This document shows positions 18,184 through 42,479 of a DNA stretch of 64,000 nt, one piece after another. This DNA is from an uncultured Hyphomicrobiales bacterium (GTDB taxonomy: Bacteria > Pseudomonadota > Alphaproteobacteria > Rhizobiales > Beijerinckiaceae), in NCBI GenBank assembly GCA_903902915.1, contig CAIUWR010000078.1, positions 1-64,000 on the forward strand, given 5' to 3'. A model generated the notes under the pieces. That model saw only the letters and a list, made by a program, of their open reading frames with translations. It was not told where the DNA came from and did not search any database. How positions within the stretch are numbered: the first letter of the stretch is position 1; each line of letters begins with the position of its first letter. The position numbers were made by a program, and so were the translations under genes.

Positions 18184-19314
18184 TCAGGCGGCGAGCTCCG
18201 CCTGCCAGACATTGTAGCCGTAAAGCCAGTCCACATTGCCGCCCTCGCGCAGCCATTCGTTGCCGCGCGATCCGATCTGCACCCGCGCGGTGCGCTCGCG
18301 ACGGCTGTTCTCGTAGCGTTGCAAGGCGGCGGGCGCCTCGTTCGGCCCCACCCCTTCGAGCGCGCGCGCGAGCATGACGCCATCCTCCACCGCCATGCAG
18401 GCGCCCTGCGCCATGAAGGGCGTCATCGGGTGGCAGGCGTCGCCCAGCAGACTGATGCGCCCCTGCGACCAGACCGGCAGCGGATCGCGCACCAGCAGCG
18501 CTGATTTCATCACCACATCGCAGGCGTCGACCAGGGCGCGAGCCTCCGGGTGATAGCCAGCATAGGCCGCCTGCATCTCCTTGGGGTCGCCCGGCTCCGT
18601 CCAGGATTCATGCGTCCAGTCCGGCTGCCCGATGGTTGCGAAAACAAAGATCTCCTCGCCACGCAAAAGCGGAAAAGTGACGATCTGGCTATCTGGGCTG
18701 GGGCCCCACCATTTCGTGAAAGCGTCGAGGTTGGGCAGATGCGCCACTTTCGCGCGGGGAATGACGCCGCGAAAAGCCACGAGTCCGGTGTAGTGCGGAC
18801 GCTCCGGCCCGAAGAGGGCCGTGCGCGCCAATGAATGGATGCCGTCCGCCCCCACAAGGGCGTCAAAGGCGAAACGCTCCGCGCCCGCTTCGAGAAACGC
18901 TTTTTCGGCCGTCTGTGAAACGCCCGTGACCCGCATTCCCAGCGTCAGCGCTTCGGCGGGCAGACGATCCTCCAGCGCGGTGAGAAGGTCGGCGCGATGG
19001 GTGGTGAGTTGCGGGGCGCCATAGCGCTTTTCCGCTTCGTCGCCCATGGGAATGCGCGACGTCTCGGCGCCGGTGTCCCATGTGCGGCTGATGCGATGGG
19101 TGGTGCGTGCGGCGGTGCGCCGCAAGGCGTCCCCAATGCCCAAACCATCAAGCGCCCGCACAGCGTTCGGGGTGAGGTTGATGTCGGCGCCCACCCGCCC
19201 GTATCGGGTCGCCTGCTCGAAGACCATCACCTCATGGCCACGCTCGCGCAGGGCGATGGCCGCACAGAGTCCGCCCACGCCACCACCGACAATTCCAACT
19301 GAAAGCTTGCCCAT
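18184..19314 (-). CDS. FAD-dependent aromatic monooxygenase (salicylate/3-hydroxybenzoate hydroxylase-like)
   Basis: A class A flavoprotein hydroxylase expected to use NAD(P)H and O2 to hydroxylate an aromatic acid. 376 residues from the ATG at 19314; a GTG at 19332 is an in-frame alternative. The dinucleotide-binding GIVGGGVGGL lies at the N-terminus, the DG motif is LVGADGIHSLAR, and the FAD-ribityl GD motif is ISLLGDACHPMTPFMAQGACMAVED. It lies downstream of a hydroxyquinol-type ring-cleavage dioxygenase on the same strand, but a strong hairpin separates them, so they may be separately transcribed. Together they could feed hydroxylated aromatics to ring cleavage. Confidence 0.85.
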   Translation of the reverse strand: MGKLSVGIVGGGVGGLCAAIALRERGHEVMVFEQATRYGRVGADINLTPNAVRALDGLGIGDALRRTAARTTHRISRTWDTGAETSRIPMGDEAEKRYGAPQLTTHRADLLTALEDRLPAEALTLGMRVTGVSQTAEKAFLEAGAERFAFDALVGADGIHSLARTALFGPERPHYTGLVAFRGVIPRAKVAHLPNLDAFTKWWGPSPDSQIVTFPLLRGEEIFVFATIGQPDWTHESWTEPGDPKEMQAAYAGYHPEARALVDACDVVMKSALLVRDPLPVWSQGRISLLGDACHPMTPFMAQGACMAVEDGVMLARALEGVGPNEAPAALQRYENSRRERTARVQIGSRGNEWLREGGNVDWLYGYNVWQAELAA

Positions 19315-19394
19315 TGCGCAAATCCGTTTCACTGGCGAACTATTATTTTACAGGTGGATAGAATGCCGGAAATCGCCCGCGACAGCAACCAATG

Positions 19395-19426
19395 CAAACG
19401 GCCCGCCCCTTTTGAGGGCGGGCCGT
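19395..19426 (-). terminator. Hairpin terminator after the intradiol dioxygenase gene
   Basis: An eleven-base perfect stem (19398-19408 with 19416-19426) and seven-base loop, with a short T-run when read on the minus strand. It lies 30 bases past the stop of the intradiol dioxygenase gene. Confidence 0.7.
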
Positions 19427-19455
19427 GGTTCGGCGACGATGGCGCGGCGCGGCGC

Positions 19456-20349
19456 CTATTTGATCGGAGGCTGCGGGAGATTGGAGTCGCCCTCCTCCAT
19501 ATGGAACGTATAGTCGAGCGTGTACCAGGGATCGGTGACGTCGGGCGCGGGGGCCGTTCCCGTCTCATGGCGGCGATAATCGCCCACCAGCGCCTTGGTG
19601 ACGCCAAACACCACGTCATTTTCAAGATGTTGCGCGCCCTGCACGAAGACTTGCGTGACCAGCGTCTTGAAGCCGGGCTTGTGCAGCAGGAAATGGATAT
19701 GGGCCGGGCGCCAGGGCTCGCGCTTCTGGAACAGCACCATATCGCCCACCGGCCCATCCACGGGAATCGGATAGCCTGCAGGCAGAATGGAACGGAAAGA
19801 GAAGCGCCCCTCGGCGTCCGTATGGAACTTGCCGCGAAGGTTATGGTCGGCCTGTTCGGGATCCTGATTCTCATACATGCCGGTGGTGGAGGAATGCCAC
19901 ACATCGACCTCGACCCCCGCCATGGGCCGGCCCTCGGGATCGACCACGCGGCAATCGGCGAACAGCGCCGGGCCGGGGGTCGGCGAACGCAGCAGCGAGC
20001 CGCCATTGGGCGTTTCAGGGCTGCGCATGCGCCAGAAGGGGCCGAGTAACGCCGCCGCCGTCTCGGTCGAGCCGTTGGCGCCGTTGTTCATCAGGCAGAC
20101 CAGCGTGGAGACGCCGATGGTGTCGGAGAAAAGCACGCCCTCATTATGGGTGTCGGTGGTCTGCTTGCCGATGCGGTTCAGGAAATCAACGCCATATTCC
20201 CATTCCTTCTCGGTCAGCTTCACCTCGCGCACGAAGGCGTGCATGTGCTTGACGAAGGCCTCGCCGATTTGCCGGATGCGGGCGTCCGGCGCGCCGGACA
20301 TGGCCTGCAAGACGGCGGGCGTGACGTCTTTTTCATCGTTGATGATCAT
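19456..20349 (-). CDS. Intradiol ring-cleavage dioxygenase, hydroxyquinol 1,2-dioxygenase-like
   Basis: Non-haem Fe(III) enzyme that opens catechol or hydroxyquinol between the two hydroxyls. 297 residues from the ATG at 20349, preceded by GAGGAA; longer in-frame starts lack family sequence. The N-terminal helical linker domain covers about residues 1-100. The iron ligands are in the expected order: Tyr159 (GMYENQ), Tyr193 (GYPIPVDG), His217 and His219 (WRPAHIHF). GVLFSDTIGVSTLV and the overall length fit the hydroxyquinol branch better than CatA, though chloro- or plain catechol is possible. Product would be maleylacetate; no maleylacetate reductase was seen nearby. Confidence 0.88.
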   Translation of the reverse strand: MIINDEKDVTPAVLQAMSGAPDARIRQIGEAFVKHMHAFVREVKLTEKEWEYGVDFLNRIGKQTTDTHNEGVLFSDTIGVSTLVCLMNNGANGSTETAAALLGPFWRMRSPETPNGGSLLRSPTPGPALFADCRVVDPEGRPMAGVEVDVWHSSTTGMYENQDPEQADHNLRGKFHTDAEGRFSFRSILPAGYPIPVDGPVGDMVLFQKREPWRPAHIHFLLHKPGFKTLVTQVFVQGAQHLENDVVFGVTKALVGDYRRHETGTAPAPDVTDPWYTLDYTFHMEEGDSNLPQPPIK

Positions 20350-20470
20350 GGGCGTTCCTCGTGCTTTAAGTGATCGGACTATCCGGCATGGATTTTCGGG
20401 GGTCAAGGCGACGCGCGCGAATTCCATTCAGCCCCTGTTCCCCGCCCGCATGGGGCGCTAGACTCGCCCC

Positions 20471-21256
20471 ATGCGCCACAGCTTCACCCTCTCCGCCAAT
20501 ATCTCCATGCTCTTCCCCGATCTGCCCTTCGTGGCGCGGATCGGGGCCGCGGCCGCTGCGGGTTTCCGGGCGGTGGAGTGCCAGTTTCCCTATGCGGCCG
20601 ACCCGCACGAAGTTGCGGGCGAACTGGCGCGCCATGACCTCGTGATGAATGGGATCAACACGCCGCAAGGCGATCCGGCCAAAGGCGAGTTCGGCATGGC
20701 CGCGGTTCCGGCCGCGCAGAGCCGTTTCCGCGACGAGTTCGAACAGGCTTTGGCCTATGCGGCGATCGTGGGCGCGCGGACCATCCATGTCATGTCCGGC
20801 ATGACGGGCGGCCGGACGGCTGCGGCGCGGGACGCCTTTTTCGAGAATTTTTTCTGGGCCTCGCACAAGGCGCGACTGGCGGACCTCACCCTGCTCATCG
20901 AGCCGCTGAACGCCGTCGACCGGCCGGGCTATTTCGTTTCCCGCTCCGACGATATCGTGGCGCTGCTGGAAGAGCTTGGTTGCGACAATGTCAAGCTGCT
21001 GTTCGACGTCTATCATATCCAGATCATGGAGGGAGACCTGCTGCGGCGGCTGGATCGTCACTGGCCCCATGTGGGCCATGTGCAGCTGGCCTCGGTTCCC
21101 CATCGCCACGAGCCTGACGAAGGCGAAGTCGCCTTCGCCGCCATTCTCGCGCATCTCGACGCGCGGGGCTATGCGGGCTTCGTGGGCGCTGAATATAACC
21201 CGCGCGGGCAGACGCTCGCCGGGCTTGGCTGGGCCGCGCCCCGGCTCGGCCGATGA
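20471..21256 (+). CDS. hyi: Hydroxypyruvate isomerase-like TIM-barrel protein
   Basis: 261 residues, matching Hyi, which interconverts hydroxypyruvate and tartronate semialdehyde. Family features: FTLSANISMLFPDLPF at the N-terminus, GFRAVECQFPY, LLIEPLNAVDRPGYF holding a metal-ligand Glu, LLFDVYHIQIMEGDL with the Asp and His, GHVQLASVPHRHEPDEGE, and the C-terminal FVGAEYNPRG. The xylose-isomerase-like fold and a divalent metal are expected. No gcl or glxR genes are adjacent, so the glyoxylate role is assumed from family. Its stop overlaps the start of the next gene (ATGA). Confidence 0.8.
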   Translation: MRHSFTLSANISMLFPDLPFVARIGAAAAAGFRAVECQFPYAADPHEVAGELARHDLVMNGINTPQGDPAKGEFGMAAVPAAQSRFRDEFEQALAYAAIVGARTIHVMSGMTGGRTAAARDAFFENFFWASHKARLADLTLLIEPLNAVDRPGYFVSRSDDIVALLEELGCDNVKLLFDVYHIQIMEGDLLRRLDRHWPHVGHVQLASVPHRHEPDEGEVAFAAILAHLDARGYAGFVGAEYNPRGQTLAGLGWAAPRLGR

Positions 21257-21909
21257 GCATTGCCGACAAAGACGCCTTCATTCGCGCGCAGACGCGCCTG
21301 CTGCCCGTGCCCCATGCGCCGGAAATCAGCCTCCACATCGCCGATGTCGCCACCGAGCTTTGGAGCAAGACCGAAGACGAGCTGGGCGAAATCGGCCTGC
21401 CGCCGCCCTTCTGGGCCTTCGCCTGGGCGGGCGGGCAGGCGCTGGCGCGCTATCTGCTCGACCATCCCGATAGCGTGCGCGGCCGCTGCGTCCTCGATTT
21501 CGCGGCGGGCTCCGGTCTTGTGGGTATTGCTGCGGCCAAGGCCGGGGCGACGCAGGTGACAGCAGTGGATATCGACGCCTTCGCCATCAGCGCCATGGGC
21601 CTCAACGCGCAGGCCAATCAGGTAAACCTGACCGCGCGCATGGGCGACATCGTGGGGCAGGACGAGGGCTGGGACGTGGTGCTGGCTGGCGATGTCTCTT
21701 ATGAGCGCGACATGGCGGCGCGCGTCACGGACTGGCTGGAGCGCCTCGCCCGGCGCGGGGCGCTGGTGCTGATCGGCGATCCCGGACGCAGCTATCTGGC
21801 GCGCGAGCGGCTGGAGTCCATCGCCGAATATCAGGTGCCGGTGACGCGCGATCTGGAGGACGCCGAGGTCAAGACGACCTGCGTCTGGCGCTTTCGCGGC
21901 CATCCTTGA
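21253..21909 (+). CDS. Class I SAM-dependent methyltransferase, ETFB-lysine-methyltransferase-like
   Basis: A 218-residue methyltransferase of the METTL20/nicotinamide N-methyltransferase-like group. PPPFWAFAWAGGQALARYLLDHP precedes the SAM motif VLDFAAGSGLVGIAAAKAGA, then VTAVDIDAFAISAMGLNAQAN and DVVLAGDVSYERDM. In alphaproteobacteria and mitochondria close relatives methylate lysines of the electron transfer flavoprotein beta subunit; I propose this by resemblance only. It is translationally coupled to the hyi-like gene by a four-base overlap. A terminator of the opposite-strand rpmF follows. Confidence 0.75.
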   Translation: MSIADKDAFIRAQTRLLPVPHAPEISLHIADVATELWSKTEDELGEIGLPPPFWAFAWAGGQALARYLLDHPDSVRGRCVLDFAAGSGLVGIAAAKAGATQVTAVDIDAFAISAMGLNAQANQVNLTARMGDIVGQDEGWDVVLAGDVSYERDMAARVTDWLERLARRGALVLIGDPGRSYLARERLESIAEYQVPVTRDLEDAEVKTTCVWRFRGHP

Positions 21910-21942
21910 ACAAGACTGGCCTGCAAGACTGGCCTGAACGCC

Positions 21943-21966
21943 AAAAAGGCCGGGGGGAACCCGGCC
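21943..21966 (-). terminator. rho-independent terminator of rpmF
   Basis: Read on the minus strand, GGCCGGG (21966-21960) pairs with CCCGGCC (21954-21948) around a five-base loop and is followed by five T. It lies 25 bases after the rpmF stop and could also serve the convergent methyltransferase gene. Confidence 0.8.
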
Positions 21967-21991
21967 TCTTCAGTCCGCAAAAGCGGCAGGA

Positions 21992-22177
21992 TCAATCCTT
22001 GGACTTGACCTTCATGACCTGACGGCCGTTGTACATGCCGGTCTTCAGATCAACGTGATGGGGACGACGCAGCTCGCCCGAGTCCTTGTCCTCGGCATAG
22101 GTCGGGGCGGCGAGGGCGTCAGCGGAACGGCGGAAGCCGCGCTTCATCGGGGAAGTCTTACGTCTCGGAACTGCCAT
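21992..22177 (-). CDS. rpmF: 50S ribosomal protein L32
   Basis: A 61-residue ribosomal protein. The N-terminus [22 protein letters not shown] is the L32 signature, so the ATG at 22177 is chosen over an upstream in-frame codon. [16 protein letters not shown] completes the family pattern; the zinc-ribbon cysteines found in some L32 proteins are absent, as in other alphaproteobacteria. It has its own terminator. The upstream neighbour on the same strand is mtgA. Confidence 0.96.
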
Positions 22178-22311
22178 GTCACTCTCCAGATAGGCGCGTA
22201 CCAAGGCTTGAGCCGGCGCGCATCGAATTAGCTGCCGGGCTGATACACCCAAACCGCCCTGTTGACCAGCGACGATTCCGCTTTTTCGGCTGCGGCGCCC
22301 GTTTCACCCCG

Positions 22312-22995
22312 TCATTCGCCCGCCTTCAGACAATCGGCGAGCCCCGGCGTCAGGGCGGCGCGGCGCACGATGGTGGCTGCGATGCGATTTTGCTGCGCGC
22401 CAGGGCGCGCCGGATTGCGCCGCAAGGGATTGGGCAGCGCCGCCGCGAGCAGCGCCGCCTCCCGCAGGTTCAGTTGCGAAGCTGGCTTGCCGAAATAGCG
22501 CCGCGCGGCGGCCTCCGCCCCAAACAGCCCATCGCCCCATTCGGCTATGTTGAGATAGGCTTCCATAACGCGCCGCTTGCCCCACATCTTGTCGATGACC
22601 AACGCAGCCGGAATCTCCAGCCCCTTGCGCAGCGTCGACCGGGAGGGCCAGAGAAAAATGTTTTTGGCGCTCTGCATGGGAATCGTGGACGCGCCGCGCG
22701 TCGGCCCATCCTCGCCCGACGCCGCGACGACGGCCCGCAATGCGCCCCAATCAACGCCCCCATGGCGGCAAAAGCGGCCATCCTCCGAGGCGATGACCGC
22801 CAGAGGCAGAGCCGCGCCCAACCGGTCCAGAGGGGTCCAGACCCGCTCTACGGGCCGGAACGTGACCCAGCGGGCCAGCATGAGGGTGGACACGGTCGGA
22901 ACGAAAGCCCAGAGCGCCACGAGCGCCGCGAAGACAACCAGAAGGATCAGGGCGGCTCGCAAGAGCCATTTCAAGATTGCGCGCAAAAACGCCAT
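22312..22995 (-). CDS. mtgA: Monofunctional peptidoglycan transglycosylase
   Basis: Polymerises lipid II into glycan strands at the outer face of the inner membrane (GT51 family). 227 residues with one N-terminal membrane anchor (WLLRAALILLVVFAALVALWAF, about residues 10-31). The catalytic glutamate Glu71 lies in IASEDGRFCRHGG; GASTIPMQSAKNIFLWPSRS, KRRVMEAYLNIAEWG and GAEAAARRYFGK are the remaining GT51 motifs. No transpeptidase domain, which separates it from class A PBPs. It runs with rpmF on the minus strand and diverges from ispA. Confidence 0.95.
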   Translation of the reverse strand: MAFLRAILKWLLRAALILLVVFAALVALWAFVPTVSTLMLARWVTFRPVERVWTPLDRLGAALPLAVIASEDGRFCRHGGVDWGALRAVVAASGEDGPTRGASTIPMQSAKNIFLWPSRSTLRKGLEIPAALVIDKMWGKRRVMEAYLNIAEWGDGLFGAEAAARRYFGKPASQLNLREAALLAAALPNPLRRNPARPGAQQNRIAATIVRRAALTPGLADCLKAGE

Positions 22996-23094
22996 GGTCG
23001 CGCAACTCAGCCCTTGCGAAAGACGCCCACAGCCTTGACCGAAGGACGCGGCTGAGGCAAGCGGAACAACGTCCCTGGAGCGCCGGAGGCTTCA

Positions 23095-24024
23095 TTGTCA
23101 GACACATCAGACCCCCAGATGAGCTTCGAGGCCCGGCTTGGGGCAGTGGCGCGCGACGTCGCCGCCCTGCTCGACGCGTTGCTGAACGACAGTCCCCTGC
23201 CCGGCGAAATCGCAAGGCCGACGCGGCTCGTCGCGGCCATGCGCCATGGCGCCCTCAATGGCGGCAAGCGCCTGCGCCCCTTCCTCACCGTCGAGGCCGC
23301 CCGCCTGCTGGGCGTTTCCGGTCCCGGCGTCTTGCGCGCCGCCTGCGCAGTGGAGCTGGTGCATTGCTATTCCCTCGTGCACGACGATCTGCCCGCCATG
23401 GACGACGACGACCTGCGCCGGGGCCAGCCCACGGTGCACCGGGCCTATGACGAAGCGACCGCAATTCTCGCAGGCGATTCGCTGCTCACCCTCGCCTTCG
23501 ACGTGATGGCGGACGAGGCGACCCACCCGGACGCGACTGTGCGCGCGGCCCTCGTGCTGGGGCTGGCGCGGGCGTCGGGCCTTGGCGGCATGGCCGGCGG
23601 GCAGATGTATGATCTGGCCGCGGAAGCCTCCCTCAATCCCCATACGGTGGAGGAGATCGCCCGGCTGCAAGCCATGAAGACCGGCGCCCTGCTGCGCTTC
23701 GCGGTCGAGGCGGGCGCCATCGTGGCGGGCGCAAATTCCGAACAGACCGCCCAGCTCGTGGCCTATGGGAAAGCGCTGGGCGCCGCCTTTCAGGTGGCCG
23801 ACGACATTCTCGACGCCGAAAGCGACGAGGCCTCGCTTGGCAAGGCGGCGGGCAAGGACGCAGGACGCAACAAGGCGACGCTGGTGAAGGCGCTGGGCCT
23901 GGAAGCCGCCAAGTCCTCCCGCGACGCGCTGGCGCGACAGGCGGAAGAGGCGCTGGCGGGCTTTGGCGAGGCCGCCCGCATCTTGGTGGAGGCGGCACGC
24001 TTCACCGCCGCAAGGCGCAATTGA
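23095..24024 (+). CDS. ispA: Polyprenyl diphosphate synthase, farnesyl/geranylgeranyl type
   Basis: Condenses isopentenyl diphosphate with allylic diphosphates to give farnesyl diphosphate. 309 residues from a TTG at 23095, preferred because GGAGG lies about six bases upstream; the first ATG (23119) has no ribosome-binding site. First aspartate-rich motif: LVHDDLPAMDDDDLRRG; second: ADDILDAESDE; GGKRLRPFL holds the IPP-binding residues. The extended first motif (DDxxxxD) is the bacterial FPP-synthase type. Start codon TTG may lower expression. It diverges from mtgA and ends against the convergent dioxygenase gene. Confidence 0.9.
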   Translation: MSDTSDPQMSFEARLGAVARDVAALLDALLNDSPLPGEIARPTRLVAAMRHGALNGGKRLRPFLTVEAARLLGVSGPGVLRAACAVELVHCYSLVHDDLPAMDDDDLRRGQPTVHRAYDEATAILAGDSLLTLAFDVMADEATHPDATVRAALVLGLARASGLGGMAGGQMYDLAAEASLNPHTVEEIARLQAMKTGALLRFAVEAGAIVAGANSEQTAQLVAYGKALGAAFQVADDILDAESDEASLGKAAGKDAGRNKATLVKALGLEAAKSSRDALARQAEEALAGFGEAARILVEAARFTAARRN

Positions 24025-24056: not shown

Positions 24057-25061
24057 CTACCTCTGCTTCCCCGGCACGCCGTCCCACCAGGGACAGGCGC
24101 CTGGCATGAGGTTGTAGTTGCCCTCCAGCACCTGCACGGGGCGTCGTAACCCGCTATTGGCGTTTTCGATGCACAGGTCGCGCGCCGCGCTCTTGCCTTC
24201 CGGCGTCATCCAGGAACGCTCGTGGCCCCACAGGCTCGGGCCTTCGGTGCGGTGGCTGGCCTCCCATGTGGCGGGGTCGATCAATTGCCCGCCCCAGCCG
24301 TGCTCGGTCATGAAGCCCGACGGGGTGTGGGTGTAATAGGAGGTCATGTAGTCGCCGCAGTGGCGGCCCAGCGTCACCGCCAGACGACCGTCTTTCTTCA
24401 ACGCAAGATCGAGCCCCTGGCCCACGTCGTCGAGGCTGAAATGCTCGATCATCATGTGATGGATCGAGCGCTTGCCGGTCTCGATCAACGCGAAGGAATG
24501 GTGACGCGGATTCACATGGAAAAAATAGGCCTCGAAAGGCTTGTAGTAGTAATCGCTGAGGCCGAAGCCCATGAGGTCGCGGTAGAAGGGCACCGCATCC
24601 GCCACGCGCTCCGCCGTCGTCACCACATGGCCGAGGCCCAGCGGTCCCGTGCGGAACCCCGAATGTACCCGCCCGCCGGTGAAGGGACGGTCGCTGATCT
24701 CCGCGCCATGGAAGAATTCGAGCCGGTAACCGATGGGGTCGGTGACGATCACCAGATCCTTCACCCGGCGCTGATCGGCGAGCGCCCGCGATCCGCGCTC
24801 CGCGCTGATCCCCGCCTTGTCGAGGGTGGCGCAAAAGGCGCCCAGCGCCACTGCGTCATCCATCTCCCACCCGAAATAGGCGACGCCCTCGCCGCCGTTC
24901 TCCTCGATCACGAGCCGCTGTTTGCGGTCATCCATCCGCAAAGCCATGCTGCCGCCAGCCTTGTCGGCGATCTGCATGCCTGCGAGCCGGGTTGCGTAAT
25001 CGGCCCAATCGGCGAGGCTTTTCGCGTTGACGCCAAGATAGCCGAGGGCCCTAGGTTTCAT
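24057..25061 (-). CDS. Extradiol ring-cleavage dioxygenase, BphC/glyoxalase-fold
   Basis: Type I extradiol dioxygenase using Fe(II) to cleave a catechol next to a hydroxyl, as 2,3-dihydroxybiphenyl 1,2-dioxygenase does. 334 residues, two vicinal-oxygen-chelate domains. Iron ligands fall at the BphC spacing: His145 (LGLGHVVTT), His201 or 202 (SIHHMMIEH) and Glu253 (GFMTEHGWGG). The C-terminus is longer than in BphC. Predicted substrates are bicyclic or alkyl-substituted catechols, unproven. It diverges from the MetE-like/UbiD operon across a 174-base gap with a hairpin, hinting at shared regulation. Confidence 0.88.
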   Translation of the reverse strand: MKPRALGYLGVNAKSLADWADYATRLAGMQIADKAGGSMALRMDDRKQRLVIEENGGEGVAYFGWEMDDAVALGAFCATLDKAGISAERGSRALADQRRVKDLVIVTDPIGYRLEFFHGAEISDRPFTGGRVHSGFRTGPLGLGHVVTTAERVADAVPFYRDLMGFGLSDYYYKPFEAYFFHVNPRHHSFALIETGKRSIHHMMIEHFSLDDVGQGLDLALKKDGRLAVTLGRHCGDYMTSYYTHTPSGFMTEHGWGGQLIDPATWEASHRTEGPSLWGHERSWMTPEGKSAARDLCIENANSGLRRPVQVLEGNYNLMPGACPWWDGVPGKQR

Positions 25062-25128
25062 TGCTTATCCTCTTCGACGCAACCGCGCCTTTCTTGATCG
25101 CCTCCTTTTCCCGCGTTTATGGCCCTCA

Positions 25129-25159
25129 GCGCAAGGGGTGACGCTGCGCCCCTTTGCGC
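25129..25159. promoter_or_regulatory. Hairpin/dyad in the divergent gap of the extradiol dioxygenase and MetE-like genes
   Basis: GCGCAAGGGG (25129-25138) can pair with CCCCTTTGCGC (25149-25159), one bulged base, around a ten-base loop. It lies about 75 bases before the MetE-like start and could be an operator or leader hairpin for the operon. Confidence 0.4.
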
Positions 25160-25235
25160 CAGCGCGGCCTTCGTTTATGCAATGCGCTGTCGCACGCGCT
25201 CCAATCCAAGGGGCCGCCAATGTCAGGGAGTCGAA

Positions 25236-26357
25236 ATGTCCGCTCGCACAACGCCGCCGTTCCGCGCCGATCAAGTTGGCAGTCTCATTCGTCCCCAGGC
25301 GCTCATCGACGCGCGCGAGGCCGCCCAGCAAGGCCGGATGGCGCCCGAGCAACTGCTCGACATCCAGCATGAGGCCATCCGCGACGTCGTGCGCATGCAG
25401 GAAGAAGCGGGGCTGAAGGTCGTCACCGACGGCGAGTTCAACCGCTTCTCGTGGCAGCGCGACTTCCTGCTGAAGATCAAGAATGTAGCCCCTGCGGAGG
25501 CCAGGCTCAACGTGCGCTTTCATTCCAAGGCGGGCGCGCGCGACCACAAGCCGCCGACCCTCGAAGTGCGCGGCAAGATTTCCCGTCCCGGCCCGATGTT
25601 CGTGGGCGATTTCGAATATCTCGCCTCCGTCGCCAAAGCGACGCCCAAGGTCACGATGCCCTCGCCCACGATCCTGCATTTTCGAGGCGGCCGCAGTTCG
25701 GTCGATCAGACCGCCTATCCCGACATGGCCGACTTCTTCGCGGATCTGGCGCAGGTCTATCGCGAAGAACTCACCGACCTCTACGCCAAGGGCTGCCGCT
25801 ATGCGCAGATCGACGAGGTGAACCTCGCCTACCTCTGCGATCCCGTGCTGCGCGCGCAGGCGACGGGCTTTGGCGAAGATCCTGATCAGTTGCCCAAGAC
25901 CTACGCCAAGCTGATCAACGATTCGATTGCTGGCCTGCCCGCCGACATGACCATGTGCATGCATCTGTGCCGCGGCAATTTCGCAGGCGCCTGGATCGCT
26001 GAAGGCGGCTATGAGCCCGTCGCCGAGCTGCTCTTCAACGAGGTGAACGTCACCGGCTATTTCCTCGAATTCGACAGCGAGCGGGCTGGCGGCTTCGAAC
26101 CCCTGCGTTTCCTGCCCAAGGGCAAGGTGGCGGTGCTGGGTCTCGTGACGACGAAAAGCTCCGCCATGGAGACAAGGGACGATCTGATGCGCCGCATCGA
26201 GGAGGCCGCGAAATTTGCGCCGCTCGATCAATTGGCGCTCAGCGCCCAATGCGGCTTTTCCAGCGGCATCGGCGGCGAGACCATGACGGTGGAGCGCGAG
26301 TTCGAAAAACTGCGCCTCATCGTGGAGACCGCGCGCGAGGTTTGGGGCGGCGCATGA
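25236..26357 (+). CDS. Short MetE-like (core cobalamin-independent methionine synthase-like) methyltransferase
   Basis: A 373-residue protein equal to only the catalytic C-terminal half of MetE. The ATG at 25236 follows AGGGAG and starts the conserved PPFRADQVGSLIRPQALI. Likely zinc ligands are the His and Cys of MHLCRGNF and the Cys of SAQCGFSSG, matching the H-x-C and C of MetE. It lacks the MetE N-terminal barrel, so polyglutamyl-folate use is doubtful; core proteins of this kind may use other methyl donors or act on thiols such as CoM-type substrates. Its stop overlaps the UbiD-family start (ATGA), tying it to aromatic acid decarboxylation. The commonly used methionine synthase name should be treated with caution. 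Confidence 0.75.
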   Translation: MSARTTPPFRADQVGSLIRPQALIDAREAAQQGRMAPEQLLDIQHEAIRDVVRMQEEAGLKVVTDGEFNRFSWQRDFLLKIKNVAPAEARLNVRFHSKAGARDHKPPTLEVRGKISRPGPMFVGDFEYLASVAKATPKVTMPSPTILHFRGGRSSVDQTAYPDMADFFADLAQVYREELTDLYAKGCRYAQIDEVNLAYLCDPVLRAQATGFGEDPDQLPKTYAKLINDSIAGLPADMTMCMHLCRGNFAGAWIAEGGYEPVAELLFNEVNVTGYFLEFDSERAGGFEPLRFLPKGKVAVLGLVTTKSSAMETRDDLMRRIEEAAKFAPLDQLALSAQCGFSSGIGGETMTVEREFEKLRLIVETAREVWGGA

Positions 26358-27907
26358 CAGGAGCAGCGAACGTGCCGGAACAGGATTCCATCTCGAACGA
26401 CGATCTTGAACGCTTCCGTCTGCGTCGCTTCGTCGAGGCCCTGTCCTCGGCGGACGAGCTGGTCACCCATGACGCGCCTTGCGATCTCGTCGATCTGCCG
26501 GAGCTGATCGACGGCGCCGCGAAGGCGGTGCTCGTGACCAGCGTTGGCGCGGAGGCGCAGGAGGTTGTCGCCAATGTCTGCGGCAGCCGCTCACGCCTCG
26601 CCCTGGCCTTTGGCGTGGCGCCCGACAAGGTGCGCGAGGAGGTGCAAAAGCGCCTGCGCCTCGCGCCCGAGATCGTGGAGATGGACCGCGCCCGCGCGCC
26701 CGTGCAGCAGGTGGTGCTGACGGGCGAGGACGCCGATCTGACGCGCCTGCCCGTGCATCTGCAACATGGCGCCGATGGCGCGCCCTATATTTCCGCAGGC
26801 ATCGATTTCGTCGTGGATCCGCGCACCGGCATGACCAATTCAGGCATTCGCCGCCTGATGCTGCGCGGCCCGCGCGAGGCGGGAATCGATCTCGTCTCGC
26901 CCAGCGATTTCCGCGCGATCTATGAAGCCAATGTGAAGGACGGCCCCTTCCCCGTGGCCTTCGTCGTGGGCGCGCACCCGATCGACTACATGGCCGCGAT
27001 GATGCGCGTTCCGGTGGATGAACTTGGCCTCATATCGTCGCTTCGCGCCGCGCCGCTCCCCGTGGTCAAATGCGTGACCAACGACATTCGCGTGCCCGCC
27101 GACGCCGAATATGTGATCGAAGGCTATCTCGACGAGCGCGGCCATGTGGAGCCCGAAGGCCCCTTTGGCGAATTCCTTGGATATTATGGCGCCCTCAAGC
27201 GCAACCCCGTCTTCCATGTGACCGCGATCACCCATCGCAAGGACGCGCTGTTCCAGAGCATGAGCATCGGCGGGCGGGCCATGAGCCGCACGGACACGGC
27301 GCAGCTCAACGCCATCCGCACCGAGGTCATGGTGTGGCGCGCGCTGGAGACGGCTGTGCGCGAGCCGCTTGGCGTCTACGCCACCGGCTCGAGCGGCGGC
27401 ATGTTCAATGTGCGGATATCGCTGCGCCAGCGCGTGCCCGGCGAAGCGCGCAACGCCATTGCGGCGGCGCTTGGGTGCCTGGGCAATATCAAGAATGTCT
27501 TCGTGGTCGATCCCGACATCGACATCTATTCCGACGAGCAGATCGACTGGGCCTTGGCGACCCGCTTTCAGCCCGACCGCGATCTGGTGGTGCTCTCGGG
27601 CATGCGCACGCTGCCGCTCGATCCGTCGCTTGCGGAGGCGCGGGTGGGCGGCAAGGCGGGCTATGACCTCACCTGGCCCTTCGGCTCGGGCGGACGCCTC
27701 GACATGTCCGTGCCCGAGGCCCCCCGCTTCGAGGGCGCGCGCTTCCCCAGCGTCGAGGCGGCGCTGGACCATGGGGCGAAGAGCTTCGAGGAGCTGATGG
27801 CCGCCGTCGGCAGCCGCGACGGCCGCGAGATCGTGCGCGTTCTGGACCAGCTGCGCCAGAGCCGCGGGCTGAAGCGCGACGAGCGCGGGCATTATCTGCT
27901 GCCGTAG
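26354..27907 (+). CDS. UbiD family prenyl-FMN-dependent decarboxylase
   Basis: Reversible decarboxylation of an aromatic or alpha,beta-unsaturated acid using prenylated FMN. 517 residues from the ATG at 26354, which overlaps the stop of the MetE-like gene; the frame is open further upstream but unrelated to the family. Typical elements are NSGIRRLMLRGP, the EYVIEGYLDERGHVEPEGPFGEFLGYYG block holding the catalytic acids, and VFVVDPDIDIYSDEQIDWALATRFQPDRDLVVL. No ubiX prenyltransferase is in the window, so cofactor must come from elsewhere. Ubiquinone-type UbiD is less likely, given the context of ring-cleaving enzymes and the MetE-like partner. Confidence 0.86.
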   Translation: MTGAANVPEQDSISNDDLERFRLRRFVEALSSADELVTHDAPCDLVDLPELIDGAAKAVLVTSVGAEAQEVVANVCGSRSRLALAFGVAPDKVREEVQKRLRLAPEIVEMDRARAPVQQVVLTGEDADLTRLPVHLQHGADGAPYISAGIDFVVDPRTGMTNSGIRRLMLRGPREAGIDLVSPSDFRAIYEANVKDGPFPVAFVVGAHPIDYMAAMMRVPVDELGLISSLRAAPLPVVKCVTNDIRVPADAEYVIEGYLDERGHVEPEGPFGEFLGYYGALKRNPVFHVTAITHRKDALFQSMSIGGRAMSRTDTAQLNAIRTEVMVWRALETAVREPLGVYATGSSGGMFNVRISLRQRVPGEARNAIAAALGCLGNIKNVFVVDPDIDIYSDEQIDWALATRFQPDRDLVVLSGMRTLPLDPSLAEARVGGKAGYDLTWPFGSGGRLDMSVPEAPRFEGARFPSVEAALDHGAKSFEELMAAVGSRDGREIVRVLDQLRQSRGLKRDERGHYLLP

Positions 27908-27924: not shown

Positions 27925-27960
27925 CTCCATGATATACATTTTGTTCTGTATATCATGGAG
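27925..27960. promoter_or_regulatory. Perfect 14-bp operator palindrome of the vapBC operon
   Basis: CTCCATGATATACA (27925-27938) and its exact complement (27947-27960) flank an eight-base AT-rich spacer. The right arm contains GGAG of the antitoxin ribosome-binding site, six bases from the ATG. This is the expected position for autorepression by the AbrB-type antitoxin; a transcript starting upstream would fold the site and hide the ribosome-binding sequence. Confidence 0.8.
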
Positions 27961-27966
27961 GTCGTC

Positions 27967-28197
27967 ATGCAGGTTTCCAGATGGGGCAATAGCTTGGCCG
28001 TGCGGCTGCCCAAGAAGCTCGTGGACGAGATGAGCCTCGTCGAGGGCGACGAGATCGACGTCGTCGAGGTGATCAACCGGACGCTCATGGTCGAGAAGGA
28101 CCAGCGCCGCAAACGGGCCTTGGAAAACATGCGACTGCGCGGGTGGACTGCGCCCGCCGATTATAAATTTGATCGCGACGAGGCCAATGAGCGGTGA
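27967..28197 (+). CDS. vapB: AbrB/MazE-type antitoxin (VapB)
   Basis: A 76-residue swapped-hairpin DNA-binding antitoxin. MQVSRWGNSLAVRLPKKLVDEMSLVEGDEIDVV at residues 1-33 is the SpoVT/AbrB fold signature; the C-terminal tail (MRLRGWTAPADYKFDRDEANER) would wrap the toxin. The ATG at 27967 has GGAGG five bases upstream; one codon earlier in-frame starts are less likely. Its stop overlaps the toxin GTG (GTGA). Expected role: neutralise VapC and repress the operon through the palindrome at 27925-27960. Confidence 0.9.
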   Translation: MQVSRWGNSLAVRLPKKLVDEMSLVEGDEIDVVEVINRTLMVEKDQRRKRALENMRLRGWTAPADYKFDRDEANER

Positions 28198-28598
28198 GGG
28201 CCTTTTTCGACACCAACATCCTCATCTATGCGCAGGAAGCTGGCCCGAAAGGGGAAACGGCGCGGGCGCTGATGACTGAAGGAGGGATCGTCAGCGTGCA
28301 GGTGCTGAACGAATTCGTCAACGTCCTGCGCAAAAAGCATCGGCGCAGTTGGGCGCAGATTGAACAGGCGCTGGGCGATGTGGATGATGCGCTTGACGAA
28401 GCTGTCCCGCTCACCTTCGAAATCCACGCTGTTGGCGTCGCCCTCGCCCGCGACCATGGACTGAGCATTTATGACGCGATGATCGTCGCGGCTGCCCTGG
28501 AGGCGGGTTGCGATACGTTGTTCAGCGAGGACATGCAGCATCAGCGGACCTTCGGGGACATGCGGATCGTCAACCCGTTTCTTGAACGCGCTGGCTGA
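28194..28598 (+). CDS. vapC: PIN-domain ribonuclease toxin (VapC)
   Basis: VapC toxins cut tRNA or rRNA with a Mg-dependent PIN active site. 134 residues from a GTG at 28194 that overlaps the vapB stop, ensuring lower translation than the antitoxin. The acidic residues are in place: Asp6 (FFDTNILIY), Glu40 (VLNEFVNV), Asp94 (SIYDAMIVAAA) and Asp113 (FSEDMQ). Nothing is truncated, so the toxin is probably active. The pair is the second toxin-antitoxin locus in the window and lies right after the UbiD gene. Confidence 0.92.
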   Translation: MRAFFDTNILIYAQEAGPKGETARALMTEGGIVSVQVLNEFVNVLRKKHRRSWAQIEQALGDVDDALDEAVPLTFEIHAVGVALARDHGLSIYDAMIVAAALEAGCDTLFSEDMQHQRTFGDMRIVNPFLERAG

Positions 28599-28664
28599 CC
28601 GCCCGCCCACCCGGGAACAATCGCCTCCCGCGCGTGTTGCACCGCTGTTGAAGCGGAGGTCGAC

Positions 28665-28955
28665 ATGGCGGCAAGCGATAGCGGTACGGCGAAACCCGCC
28701 CCCAAGGCGGGCGGCGGCGCTTTCATGAAACCACTCCATCCGTCCAGGGAGCTGGCGGCGGTCGTGGGCGCGGAGCCGCTGCCCCGCTCCGAGGCGGTGA
28801 GCCGGATGTGGGCCTATATCAAGGAGCACAAGCTCCAGAACGAGCAGAACAAGCGCGAGATCATCGCGGACGCCAAGCTGCTCGCCATCTTCGACAACAA
28901 GGACAAGGTGAGCATGTTCGAGATGAACAAACACCTCGCCAGACATCTGAAGTGA
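28665..28955 (+). CDS. SWIB/MDM2-domain protein
   Basis: A 96-residue protein with a charged, alanine/proline-rich tail at residues 1-20 and one SWIB domain (FMKPLHPSRELAAVVGAEPLPRSEAVSRMWAYIKEHKLQ and NKREIIADAKLLAIF to the end, in pieces). SWIB is best known from eukaryotic SWI/SNF chromatin complexes and chlamydial topoisomerase; stand-alone bacterial copies occur in Hyphomicrobiales but their role is undescribed. GGAGG lies five bases upstream of the ATG. A lysine-rich composition might allow DNA or protein binding. It sits alone between vapC and a convergent oxidoreductase. Confidence 0.88.
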   Translation: MAASDSGTAKPAPKAGGGAFMKPLHPSRELAAVVGAEPLPRSEAVSRMWAYIKEHKLQNEQNKREIIADAKLLAIFDNKDKVSMFEMNKHLARHLK

Positions 28956-28973
28956 CGCGCGGGCGCCGCACCC

Positions 28974-30146
28974 TCACTCGGCGGCGGCCATGATCTGGCG
29001 CGTGCCCGGCAGGTCGCGGATCTGCGGATAGACCTCTTTGGCGAAGAGGGTCATGTTGCGCACCGTGCTCTTGTGGTCGAGGAACCCCGCCTGCATCATC
29101 ATGAGCAGATGATCGAAGCCGCCGACGCGCTCATATTCCAGCCAGATCTGCGCCGCCACCTGATCGGGCGTGCCGTAGATCACCACGCCCAGCTCCCGCT
29201 GCTGCTCCATGGTCACCTGCCGCAATCCATCGTTGCTGCGCGCGCGCGCGTCCCCATCGCCCTTGAGCGCTGCGGCGGTGGCGGCCACCGGCACATAGCC
29301 GGGCGGATTGCGGAACTGCGGCTCCACCTTGGCCTTCAAATACCAGGTCAGCTCGCGCGCGCCCCGCTCCGCCTCCGCCTCGGTGTCCCCCACATAGAGC
29401 AGCGGCATGAAGGCGAGGCCGCCGCCGCCGGGCTGGCCATTGTCCGCATAGGCGCCGCGATAGGCGTCGAACAGCTCGCGCACCTTTCGCCACGGTTGCA
29501 GGAAGGTGGCGAAGACATAGCCTTGAGAGGCGGCGCGGCGCACGGATTCCACATCGCTGGAGCCCGTCACCCAGACGGGCGGATGGGGGGCCTGATAGGG
29601 GCGCGGCCAGATGTTGACCGCGCGGCGGTTGGTGAAGCGCGTCTCCACGTTGAATGGTTCGTCGTGGGAGGTCCAGGCCTTCACGCATAGCTCGATCCCC
29701 TCCCAAAGGCGCTCGGCCGTATGGGTGGGATTGGTGTTGGCCGCGAAGATCTCATAAGGCACGCCGCGCACGAAACCCGCCTCGAGGCGCCCGCGCGAAA
29801 TGCAGTCGATCATCGCCATCTCCTCGGCGATACGGATCGGATCGCCCCGATTGGCGATGGGATTGCCCAGAATGCAGATGCGCCCCTTCGAGGTCTGTCG
29901 CGCCAGAATGGCCAGCGACAGAGGCGCGGCGACGTCAAGGCAAGTGGCGGTCTGATGATGCTCGTTGACCATCATGTTGAGGCCGAGATCGTCGGCGATC
30001 ATGTGCTCGTCAAGATAGCGATTGTAGAGATCGGCGCCGATCTTCGGATCGAAATGCCGATTGGGCAGGGTGACGCGAATCGTCGAGAGGCTGTCCATGG
30101 GGGGCAGATGGGGATAGGGCATCTCGGTGAAGTGCCAGGCCTGCAT
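28974..30146 (-). CDS. LLM class flavin-dependent oxidoreductase (bacterial luciferase-like monooxygenase)
   Basis: A 390-residue TIM-barrel flavin monooxygenase using reduced FMN or F420. Typical elements are NMMVNEHHQTATCLDVAAPLSLAILARQTSKGRICILGNPI near residue 55-95 (in pieces), RIAEEMAMIDCISRGRLEAGFVRG and PPVWVTGSSDVESVRRAASQGYVFATF. The substrate is unknown; the group contains nitrilotriacetate, alkanesulfonate and long-chain alkane monooxygenases. An 18-base gap separates it from the SWIB gene on the opposite strand. No reductase partner is adjacent, so reduced flavin would be supplied from elsewhere. Confidence 0.85.
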   Translation of the reverse strand: MQAWHFTEMPYPHLPPMDSLSTIRVTLPNRHFDPKIGADLYNRYLDEHMIADDLGLNMMVNEHHQTATCLDVAAPLSLAILARQTSKGRICILGNPIANRGDPIRIAEEMAMIDCISRGRLEAGFVRGVPYEIFAANTNPTHTAERLWEGIELCVKAWTSHDEPFNVETRFTNRRAVNIWPRPYQAPHPPVWVTGSSDVESVRRAASQGYVFATFLQPWRKVRELFDAYRGAYADNGQPGGGGLAFMPLLYVGDTEAEAERGARELTWYLKAKVEPQFRNPPGYVPVAATAAALKGDGDARARSNDGLRQVTMEQQRELGVVIYGTPDQVAAQIWLEYERVGGFDHLLMMMQAGFLDHKSTVRNMTLFAKEVYPQIRDLPGTRQIMAAAE

Positions 30147-33832: not shown

Positions 33833-33997
33833 GCGCCCTATCGCGCCTTGCGCAAGACAGCTCCCCGCAACGGAGGTCAGACATCCGCCACAGCACGGCT
33901 TGACCGCGCGTGGAACGCGTGATCGACTCGCGGCCCAAACATGCTTCTGAACAAACAGGAGCGGGCGGGAGCGGGCGTCTGGCATGAGCATACGAGC

Positions 33998-34783
33998 ATG
34001 AGCGGCATCGTCGTCGAAGGGCTTCGGCATCTCTACAGGCCAAAGCGCGGCGCGCCTGTGCTGGCGTTGGAAGATGTGACTCTCAGCGTGGGCGATCAGG
34101 AGTTCATCGCCCTGCTTGGCCCCTCCGGCTGCGGAAAATCCACCCTGCTCTACCTCATGGGCGGTTTTCTGCCCGTGGAGACCGGCCTCATCACCATGGA
34201 TGGCGCGCCCGTCGCGGGGCCGGGACCCGATCGCGGCGTCGTGTTCCAGCATTTTGCGCTGTTCCCCTGGAAGACCGTGCTGCAAAACGTGCTCTATGGG
34301 CTGGAGCGCCAGCCCTTGGCGCGCGGCGAGCGCGAGGCGCGCGCCCTCGCTTTCATCAAGATGGTCGGCCTCTCGGGCTTCGAGAATAATTACCCCTCCC
34401 AGCTCTCCGGCGGCATGAAGCAGCGCGCGGCCATCGCCCGCACGCTGGCCATCGACCCGAAGGCGCTGCTGATGGACGAGCCCTTCGGCGCGCTCGACGC
34501 GCAGACCCGCCATCTCATGCAGACCGAACTGCTCGCCATCTGGCGCCGCTCCCCCAAGACCGTGATCTTCGTCACCCATGACGTGCAGGAGGCGGTCTAT
34601 CTGGCGGAGCGCATCGTGGTCATGTCGGCGCGGCCCGGGCGCATCAAGGAGATCGTGACCGTGGGCCTCGACAAGGCGGACCCGGAGCTGACGCGCAGCA
34701 GCGCCTTCGCGCAAATGAGCGATCATGTCTGGTCGCTGGTGCGCGACGAGGCGATCAAGGCGCAGGCGGGCGTCGGCCCATGA
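33998..34783 (+). CDS. ABC transporter ATP-binding protein (nitrate/sulfonate/taurine type)
   Basis: ATPase of an importer, 261 residues from the ATG at 33998. Walker A LLGPSGCGKST, Q-loop FQHFALFPWKTVLQNV, signature QLSGGMKQR, Walker B ALLMDEPFGALDAQ and H-loop VTHDVQEA are intact. The FPWKTVLQN pattern is that of SsuB/TauB/NrtD ATPases. It overlaps the next gene by four bases, giving one operon with two different permease genes. No binding protein is adjacent; the receptors at 40729 and 51298 are of the matching family. Substrate unknown. Confidence 0.9.
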   Translation: MSGIVVEGLRHLYRPKRGAPVLALEDVTLSVGDQEFIALLGPSGCGKSTLLYLMGGFLPVETGLITMDGAPVAGPGPDRGVVFQHFALFPWKTVLQNVLYGLERQPLARGEREARALAFIKMVGLSGFENNYPSQLSGGMKQRAAIARTLAIDPKALLMDEPFGALDAQTRHLMQTELLAIWRRSPKTVIFVTHDVQEAVYLAERIVVMSARPGRIKEIVTVGLDKADPELTRSSAFAQMSDHVWSLVRDEAIKAQAGVGP

Positions 34784-35532
34784 ACGCGCTCTCCAGCGCC
34801 GTCCTGCGCTATTCCCCCCTGCTGATTCTGGCCCTGTGCTGGGAGGCGGCGGCGCGCAGCGGCTTGTTCTCCTCATCGTCCCTGCCCCCGCTCAGCGCCA
34901 TCGCGCTGGCCTGGGTCGATCTGGCGCGCAGCGGCGACCTCACCGGCAATACGCTGGCCTCGCTCTGGCGCACGGGCGCGGGGCTGGGGCTGGCCATCGT
35001 CATCGGCGCGGTGCTGGGCTTCGCCATGGCCTTCTGGCGCGGCGCCGAGACCGCCCTGAGTCCGGTGGTGGAGCTGTTCTATCCCCTGCCAAAATCCGCC
35101 CTGATCCCCGTCACCGCCCTCTGGCTGGGCTTTGGCGATGGGTCGAAGATCCTCTTGATCTGCATGGGCTGCATGCTGCCGGTGACCATGGGCGCCTTCA
35201 ACGGCGCCCTTTCCGCCGACCGCACCCTGCTCTGGTCCGCCCGCAGCCTTGGCGCCAGCCGGTTGCGCAGCATGTGGGATGTGGTGCTGCCCAGCGCCGT
35301 TCCCGAATTGCTGAACGGAATCCGCACAGCGCTGGCCCTGTCCTTCGTGCTGCTGGTGAGTTCCGAACTGATCGTCTCGCGCGAGGGGCTGGGCTATCTG
35401 ATCGGCTTTCTGGGCTCGAACGGAACCTATGAATCCATGTTCGCGGTGGTGCTGACGGTGGCCTTCATCGGCTTTCTCGCCGATCAGCTTTTCGAGTCCT
35501 TCGTGCGGAGGATCCTCGCATGGCGGGACTGA
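34780..35532 (+). CDS. ABC transporter permease, SsuC/TauC type (first)
   Basis: A 250-residue inner-membrane permease. About six hydrophobic segments are visible, starting YSPLLILALCWEAAARSG. The cytoplasmic loop that contacts the ATPase follows the binding-protein-dependent permease pattern, SARSLGASRLRSMWDVVLPSAVPELLNGIRTALALSFVLLVSSELI. Overlaps the ATPase gene by four bases and the second permease by 13. Having two distinct permeases implies a heterodimeric channel. Confidence 0.88.
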   Translation: MNALSSAVLRYSPLLILALCWEAAARSGLFSSSSLPPLSAIALAWVDLARSGDLTGNTLASLWRTGAGLGLAIVIGAVLGFAMAFWRGAETALSPVVELFYPLPKSALIPVTALWLGFGDGSKILLICMGCMLPVTMGAFNGALSADRTLLWSARSLGASRLRSMWDVVLPSAVPELLNGIRTALALSFVLLVSSELIVSREGLGYLIGFLGSNGTYESMFAVVLTVAFIGFLADQLFESFVRRILAWRD

Positions 35533-40406: not shown

Positions 40407-40728
40407 GATCAGATCCTTCAGGCGACGTCGCCTCGCTACCGCATCTAGGATGTATCGCCGATGCAAGGCAAGACGCCGCCACAGGCGTTCGGCGCAAGCT
40501 CGTCCGTCGCCTTTCGGCGGAGATTGATTTTCTGCGCCAGGTTCGATCTATTCTCCCTCAAGCGACCGCAACGAACGGTCCCGGTTGGGGGAAATATGAC
40601 ACAGGACGGTTTTCTGGTCGGCGCCGCGCCTGCGGCCGCATATCCCCATTTTCATGATCGGCGCCGAACGCGGCTTTGACCCAAGACGGCGTGGACGTCC
40701 TGTCCAAAATAAACCAAGGGAGCATCAT
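40407..40728. other. 322-base intergenic region
   Basis: Lies between divergent DUF2786 and receptor genes and must hold both promoters. No gene or structured RNA was recognised; short GC-rich dyads occur around 40620-40670 (for instance the GGCGCCG repeats). The receptor ribosome-binding site AAGGGAG is at 40715-40721. Confidence 0.4.
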
Positions 40729-42365: not shown

Positions 42366-42479
42366 GGCGGTATCCTTGGTTGATGGCAGGCCTTGCGCAG
42401 CCTATTGAGGGCGTTCTTGAGCGGCCTGTACCATAATTCTCTCGGCGAAGCGCCATCCCTATGGCAAAGCACGGCACGA

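Follow-up and report, generated by a model that had tools for sequence, protein, structure and literature searches.

The 64,000-nucleotide stretch analysed here (the window) comprises positions 1 to 64,000 of contig CAIUWR010000078.1 (C78) of an uncultured Hyphomicrobiales bacterium, the genome of which has 3.68 Mb and a completeness of 99.91%; the G+C content of the window is 64.5%. The genes under study encode a protein that resembles the catalytic part of the methionine synthase MetE and a decarboxylase of the UbiD family, and the gene for an extradiol dioxygenase is divergent from this pair. The closest relatives in our scan were metagenome-assembled genomes of the Beijerinckiaceae and one labelled Rhizobium sp. 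Q54, with MetE-like proteins that are 89-92% identical. Compared loci, genomes and contigs carry L, G and C numbers, respectively. The locus contains the following features (aa, amino acids):

24057..25061, minus strand: BphC-type (type I) extradiol dioxygenase, 334 aa, divergent from the pair; alignment to 1han
25062..25235: divergent intergenic region of 174 bases, presumably with both promoters
25236..26357, plus strand: MetE-like core protein (PRK06520), 373 aa, single catalytic barrel; profile match and alignment
26354..27907, plus strand: UbiD-family decarboxylase, 517 aa; profile matches; 4-base overlap with the preceding MetE-like gene
27955..28197, plus strand: MazE-type antitoxin, probably an insertion and outside the proposed module; not called in L010, L014 and L050
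28194..28598, plus strand: PIN-domain toxin, partner of the MazE-type antitoxin, probably an insertion
28665..28955, plus strand: SWIB-domain protein, 96 aa; kept downstream of UbiD in L009-L011, L013 and L050
28974..30146, minus strand: luciferase-like (LLM) flavin monooxygenase, 390 aa; kept with the pair in L009-L011, L013, L014 and L050

The first-pass annotation had described a half-length MetE-like protein that overlaps a UbiD decarboxylase by four bases, with an extradiol dioxygenase divergent from both, and this arrangement was confirmed. The open reading frames (ORFs) 25236-26357 and 26354-27907 share the sequence ATGA, in that the UbiD ATG lies at 26354 and the MetE-like gene ends at 26357, and the dioxygenase gene occupies 24057-25061 of the minus strand. 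The MetE-like protein most likely starts at the ATG at 25236, which has a GGAG-like ribosome site, rather than at 25119, where the first in-frame ATG lies; in the alignment, its relatives share the start equivalent to 25236.

From the overlap the same annotation had proposed a joint function, to be given up if the pair were not conserved in other genomes. In the neighbourhood comparison with tblastn, a MetE-like and a UbiD gene were found within 3 kb of one another at 10 distinct places (the window, L009, L010, L011, L012, L013, L014, L023, L050 and L143), so that this objection fails. Three gene orders occur: the MetE-like gene precedes the UbiD gene in the window, L009-L014 and L050, the two are divergent in L023, and the UbiD gene comes first in L143. 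Only L009 and L010 retain the exact ATGA overlap. Elsewhere the genes are close and the UbiD starts provisional, with aligned ends separated by 2-8 bases in L011-L013 and L050 and by 77 bases in L014. The MetE-like and UbiD proteins of L023 (Rhodospirillales) are 64% and 61% identical to those of the window, and those of L143 (Xanthobacteraceae) 48% and 58%. In the tree, to which rows including L092, L093, L113-L115 and L143 were added by hand, the MetE-like protein of L143 falls outside the window clade with strong support. Taken alone, the L143 pair could be due to chance, because its genome has 19 MetE-like and 16 UbiD first-look candidates.

In the stretches compared, 8 of 80 loci have UbiD, and 12 have a BphC homologue close to the MetE-like gene. 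We then considered 13 genomes with a MetE-like protein at least 54% identical, picked by hand from L009-L028 and L050, and 11 of them contained UbiD, with a best match of E 4.5e-148 or lower in each. For comparison, this UbiD type was found in 5 of 385 alphaproteobacteria at E 1e-140, the host genome included, and an order-level scan at E 1e-80 found it in 1 of 297 genomes, namely the host. The threshold for the 13 genomes was 1e-100, and all 11 positives also pass 1e-140. In five of the 13 (L010, L013, L014, L023 and L050) the pair had been seen beforehand; six of the remaining eight (G682, G683, G686-G689) had a UbiD protein that is 47-67% identical. The Fisher values, which are a guide only because the genomes are related and were chosen by hand, are 1e-16 for 11/13 versus 4/384, 2e-12 when the four Beijerinckiaceae-like genomes are counted once, and 1e-9 for 6/8 versus 4/384. 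The three gene orders, the co-occurrence and the presence of metH in the host (see below) support the proposed joint function well, and it is likely that the MetE-like and UbiD proteins work together.

The MetE-like protein belongs to the family PRK06520 (NF005085), with 422.9 bits at a cut-off of 313 and residues 4-370 aligned to positions 3-368 of 368. It falls far short of the canonical MetE model TIGR01371 (43.4 bits, cut-off 929.95), its 373 aa corresponding to the catalytic part only. The zinc-site and homocysteine-site residues of canonical MetE are nevertheless present: H243, C245, E278 and C339, which we take to be the zinc ligands, and S16, E67 and D193, presumably the homocysteine contacts (mapped from the MetE literature), are invariant in 47 of 47 aligned MetE-like rows. 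The region in which MetE stacks the pterin on a tryptophan presumably corresponds to HFRGGR in the window protein. The structure prediction that had been suggested as a check yielded a MetE-type barrel, the AlphaFold2 model (47 sequences, from the window and the loci) having a mean predicted local distance difference test score (pLDDT) of 91.4 and a predicted template modelling score (pTM) of 0.90. In the structure search the model matched 1ypx (Z 40.7, root-mean-square deviation 1.7 over 315 residues, 42% identical where aligned), and the model also matched the C-terminal half of MetE structures at Z about 28-34. MetE relatives ranked first (32 rows in one search, 24 in another), followed by proteins of the UROD fold.

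A search for differences between 11 rows of the window subgroup and 32 rows outside the clade, with the four clade rows L023-L026 excluded from both groups, returned 13 positions at which the two groups have different fixed or almost fixed residues. N69, A250, G251 and G344 occur in 11 of 11 subgroup rows and in 0 of 32 others, and lie at most six residues from site residues. At positions 69, 250/251 and 344/346 the outside rows have R, R/Q/K-S, and T/V/M with mostly E, where the window subgroup has N69, A250/G251 and G344/G346. These fixed changes beside the site suggest an altered donor pocket; statements on the pocket derive from the sequence and not from the coordinates of the one AlphaFold model. 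A gene for MesX (DUF1852, PF08908) was found in 0 of the 10 neighbours scanned (18184-24024 and 27955-30146), and neither a genome-wide search for DUF1852 nor a comparison with the MesD sequence was made.

The UbiD protein exceeds the TIGR00148 cut-off of 244.85 with 273.5 bits, and its N, middle and C domains (PF20695, PF01977 and PF20696) are all above cut-off. The nearest solved sequences are 6h6v/6h6x, which we take to be HmfF, at 194-196 bits and with partial similarity. R167, E268 and E273 presumably form the putative catalytic triad, their roles being taken from Fdc1, and either of two PF02441 flavoproteins in the genome is a candidate UbiX and thereby a source of prenylated flavin mononucleotide (prenyl-FMN). 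In the dioxygenase, H145, H202 and E253 align with the nearest structure, 1han, as required for type I, and are presumably the 2-His-1-Glu iron ligands. Its score to the biphenyl-2,3-diol dioxygenase model (244.4 bits) lies under the equivalog cut-off of 366.45, so that a substrate is not implied. A gene of xanthine-dehydrogenase type (XDH) was present within 5 kb in 8 of 16 loci with this UbiD type outside the window pair and not in the other eight; the UbiD-XDH link is therefore partial. The loci with a nearby XDH-type gene include Neorhizobium and Paraburkholderia, with enoyl-CoA hydratase also annotated, and there were no usable gene calls around UbiD in L129-L131 (G670, G593 and G504).

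The host genome contains metH (1709.8 bits), and methionine synthesis therefore does not depend on the MetE-like protein. A LigM-type demethylase was not found in this genome, which yielded a single GCV_T match of 33 bits and no LigM match at 1e-20; such a match was absent also in 12 of 13 other genomes searched, so that another demethylase would be needed. The MetF-like gene of the host sits on C100, apart from the pair on C78. Because metH is present and LigM/DesA was not found, neither a need for methionine nor a demethylase dependent on tetrahydrofolate (THF) explains the MetE-like gene. Links between demethylation and one-carbon (C1) metabolism are on record elsewhere: according to the available text of the respective papers, O-demethylation feeds methionine synthesis in Sphingobium SYK-6, which has a ligM-metF-ligH operon (PMC6888825), and in Agrobacterium fabrum Atu1420-Atu1418 an O-demethylase is coupled with a MetF-like protein (PMC7797058). 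Likewise as far as the accessible portions go, a UbiD acting on the methoxylated acid 5-carboxyvanillate was proposed in Paenibacillus (PMC12673573), and core methionine synthases without a folate domain exist (PMC7857596, PMC12366255, PMC12478193). Our searches of the open-licence literature, judged by titles and abstract openings, did not turn up a description of the MetE-like/UbiD pairing.

The wider family was analysed at 105 loci with a PRK06520-type gene, 45 of which have at least one family of an aromatic/C1 panel within 5 kb (XDH and the distant MetE-like protein MetE2 excluded). MetF-like genes were within this distance in 9 of the 105 and LigM-type genes in 2. The panel was derived from these same loci with a simple ORF picker, and the counts are descriptive and not a test; furthermore, the loci are not independent, several coming from one genome, and genes were merged or uncalled in some (L023, L044, L071 and L084 among them). 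The LigM-type protein of L066 scores 696 bits to the solved vanillate/3-O-methylgallate O-demethylase, and that of L034 scores 887 bits to the L066 protein. Genes for a MetF-like protein and an intradiol dioxygenase are also present in L034, together with four MetE-like copies, of which one is partial in the alignment. In G677, one MetE-like copy stands alongside a MetF-like gene (193 bits to 7xg9) and an amidohydrolase gene, the product of which resembles the one beside the C21 MetE-like copy of the host, itself similar to gamma-resorcylate and 5-carboxyvanillate decarboxylases. Several divergent PRK06520-type paralogues are present in the host, and tandem MetE-like genes, with at least two copies, occur in 12 of 117 loci. 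Because some members adjoin LigM, MetF-like and intradiol dioxygenase genes, the PRK06520 family appears, in part, to serve methyl handling in aromatic catabolism.

At L031, L032, L034, L038 and L054, four MetE-like copies follow one another directly or almost directly, and all of these loci except L038 have a MetF-like gene no more than 5 kb away. A conserved protein of 467-495 aa is encoded between the intradiol dioxygenase and MetF/MetE-like genes at L045:6369-7838, with six homologues (L031, L032, L034, L043, L054 and L056). It gave no Pfam match at E 0.001 (two tested), and the L045 copy (489 aa) no match in the PDB at 0.001. The BphC-adjacent protein of L016 (471 aa, presumably the size of LigM; 465 aa in L017) was considered as a LigM and rejected, as it is MmgE/PrpD-like.

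The surroundings of the pair differ between relatives. In the Xanthobacteraceae L015-L020, the MetE-like orthologue retains the BphC homologue, and L015, L016 and L020 have amidohydrolase-2 genes and an aromatic-acid transporter with no UbiD nearby (gene names from Pfam/NCBIfam for L020 and by similarity for L015 and L016). In G677 (L148, L050), a second module directly adjoins the pair:

FAA hydrolase, pirin, Rieske oxygenase, NMT1-type protein, second UbiD, xanthine-dehydrogenase-type protein
second, distant MetE-like protein (MetE2), cupin, HpaI-type aldolase, amidohydrolase, homogentisate dioxygenase, fumarylacetoacetase

The host has the same second module plus a DAO gene (L111, C78 66.8-84 kb), about 40 kb downstream of the pair and beyond the window. 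Its UbiD is 69% identical, its aldolase, amidohydrolase and homogentisate dioxygenase genes were assigned by similarity, and its LigXa_C Rieske oxygenase lies at about 69.7-71.0 kb of C78. In MetE2, an HxC motif, a Glu and a Cys are kept in 8 of 8 sequences, L050 and L148 representing the same gene.

The LLM flavin enzyme scores 780-862 bits in six near relatives; the matches in L023 (141.8 bits) and in L016/L017 (58-62 bits) are far below this range and were not counted as conserved. Both MazE/PIN genes were called in L013, one in L009 and L011, and neither in L010, L014 and L050; the two genes between UbiD and the SWIB gene are probably a small insertion. Elsewhere in the window, a flavoprotein monooxygenase gene (3-hydroxybenzoate 6-hydroxylase/salicylate hydroxylase-like) is adjacent to one for a catechol-type intradiol dioxygenase at 18184-20427, both below equivalog cut-offs, and may be a further piece of an aromatic pathway. 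Taurine/sulfonate-type ABC transporter genes and a gene for an SsuA-family binding protein (33941-36305 and 40654-41739) follow a few kb downstream of the module; uptake of its substrate is a possible role. At 41796-44581, elongation factor P is encoded side by side with EpmA-like and lysine 2,3-aminomutase-like proteins.

The explanation we favour, tentatively and with a probability of about 0.38, is that the locus is an aromatic-acid catabolic module, the aromatic acid of which is probably methoxylated (lignin-type). UbiD with prenyl-FMN would remove the ring carboxylate, and the MetE-like protein, with a Zn-bound homocysteine thiolate, would take the methyl group from the substrate or its decarboxylated product, yielding a free phenol and methionine. 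The BphC-type dioxygenase would open the resulting catechol, and the LLM enzyme may oxygenate an intermediate. As the mechanism we put forward, with the same reserve, a transfer of the methyl group straight from the methoxy-aromatic to zinc-bound homocysteine; it is preferred because neither the need for methionine nor a THF demethylase explains the MetE-like gene. Demethylation of a methoxy-aromatic is thus the leading idea, with indirect support from the relatives beside LigM and MetF. A methyl sink would fit nearly as well, and follows closely in our preference: an enzyme other than the MetE-like protein, such as the second module's Rieske oxygenase or one that escaped detection, would demethylate the substrate, and the MetE-like protein would pass the C1 unit on to homocysteine from its carrier (5-methyl-THF or a different one), which would thereby be regenerated. 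The SYK-6 precedent, in the available part of PMC6888825, and the PRK06520-type genes near MetF-like (9/105) and LigM-type genes (2/105) argue for such a sink, and the host has both a MetF-like gene (C100) and the LigXa_C Rieske oxygenase (C78). However, a LigM-type gene was not found in the host, its MetF-like gene is on a different contig, and the MetE-like protein lacks the N-terminal domain and reads HFRGGR in the presumed pterin-stacking region. In addition, Rieske oxygenases yield formaldehyde rather than methyl-THF. On balance we regard the sink as somewhat unlikely.

Two further explanations are improbable in our judgement, to a similar degree. The zinc thiolate might add to an epoxide or quinone produced by the LLM enzyme or another oxygenase, as in epoxyalkane:coenzyme M (CoM) transferase, which would agree with the same fold and type of zinc site, with the LLM enzyme kept beside the pair in six near relatives and with the subgroup-specific changes close to the site. 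Yet the invariance of S16, E67 and D193 indicates homocysteine as the thiol, and nothing observed points directly to an epoxide or a quinone as intermediate. Alternatively, the MetE-like protein could be a spare, ordinary methionine synthase that shares a promoter with the UbiD gene and no pathway with its product. NCBIfam names the family homocysteine methyltransferase, and 60 of the 105 family loci are not near aromatic/C1 genes of the panel; but the pair is adjacent in three gene orders, UbiD co-occurs in 11 of 13 genomes (6 of 8 without those known beforehand) versus 5 of 385, metH is present, and the same genome has the divergent paralogues.

Several observations weigh against a module with direct methyl transfer. 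G684 and G685, both among the 13 genomes chosen for a close MetE-like protein, lack such a UbiD, and the UbiD type occurs without a MetE-like match at 1e-120 in 6 of 7 other genomes or records, 3 of the 7 being plasmid records, searched without their chromosomes. Neither UbiD nor a BphC homologue accompanies the MetE-like relatives of L022 and L024-L028 in the compared stretches, some of which are short. The 60 family loci just mentioned comprise 7 with XDH or MetE2 only and 53 with no panel family, and a Klebsiella plasmid member adjoins a urea-type ABC transporter; as a whole, therefore, the family has no fixed link to aromatics. The substrate of the module is presumed, the formation of a methionine for each substrate molecule would place too great a load on the methionine cycle, and we know of no MetE-fold enzyme that moves a methyl group directly from an aryl ether to homocysteine.

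A more far-reaching explanation is that a subgroup of MetE-fold enzymes represents cobalamin- and folate-free aryl O-demethylases, which would transfer the ether methyl group directly to the thiolate of Zn-bound homocysteine and act in concert with a prenyl-FMN decarboxylase. We consider this unlikely at present, though less so than the epoxide or spare-synthase explanations. The tandem MetE-like copies, some by MetF-like genes, may be a wider version with the thiol as a methyl shuttle. A shuttle by reverse methionine synthase, from methionine to THF, is thermodynamically unfavourable and was set aside, and the thiol shuttle was therefore kept only for the cobalamin- and folate-free demethylase. 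If true, such a transfer would add a further chemistry of aromatic O-demethylation to those of oxygenases and of methyltransferases that use THF or corrinoids. Automatic annotation names such proteins methionine synthases; if the window's subgroup acts as demethylase or sink, a set of these names would be wrong, a demethylation route in bacteria without LigM/DesA could be tested with one purified enzyme, and a distinct UbiD subfamily would gain functional context.

The window protein shares with the PRK06520/YxjG-YxjH "methionine synthase II" proteins (1ypx, presumably YxjG-type) the full-length family match, the fold and the Zn/homocysteine residues, and its subgroup differs from them by N69, A250/G251, G344/G346 and the pairing with UbiD. 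Epoxyalkane:CoM transferase is a catabolic Zn-thiolate enzyme of the MetE superfamily that uses coenzyme M and epoxides, and is likened to the window protein by this description and not by sequence comparison. The solved UbiD proteins 6h6v/6h6x share the three UbiD domains and the putative R-E-E triad, while their similarity to the window UbiD is only partial. The core methionine synthases MesA-MesD (PMC7857596) and core-MetE (PMC7005905) are, from the available text, likewise one-domain proteins with an intact zinc site and no folate-binding N-domain; in contrast to them, the MetE-like gene lies in a catabolic cluster of a genome with metH. The accessible part of PMC7857596 does not mention YxjG. 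In the LigM/DesA systems with MetF (SYK-6, PMC6888825; A. fabrum, PMC7797058; both as far as available), the methyl group of methoxy-aromatics also enters C1/methionine metabolism, and a few PRK06520 genes adjoin LigM and MetF; the difference is that LigM/DesA have the GcvT fold and THF as acceptor, and that such a gene was not found in this genome. The folds of the MetE-like, UbiD and BphC-type proteins are known, and the literature searches did not show their association described.

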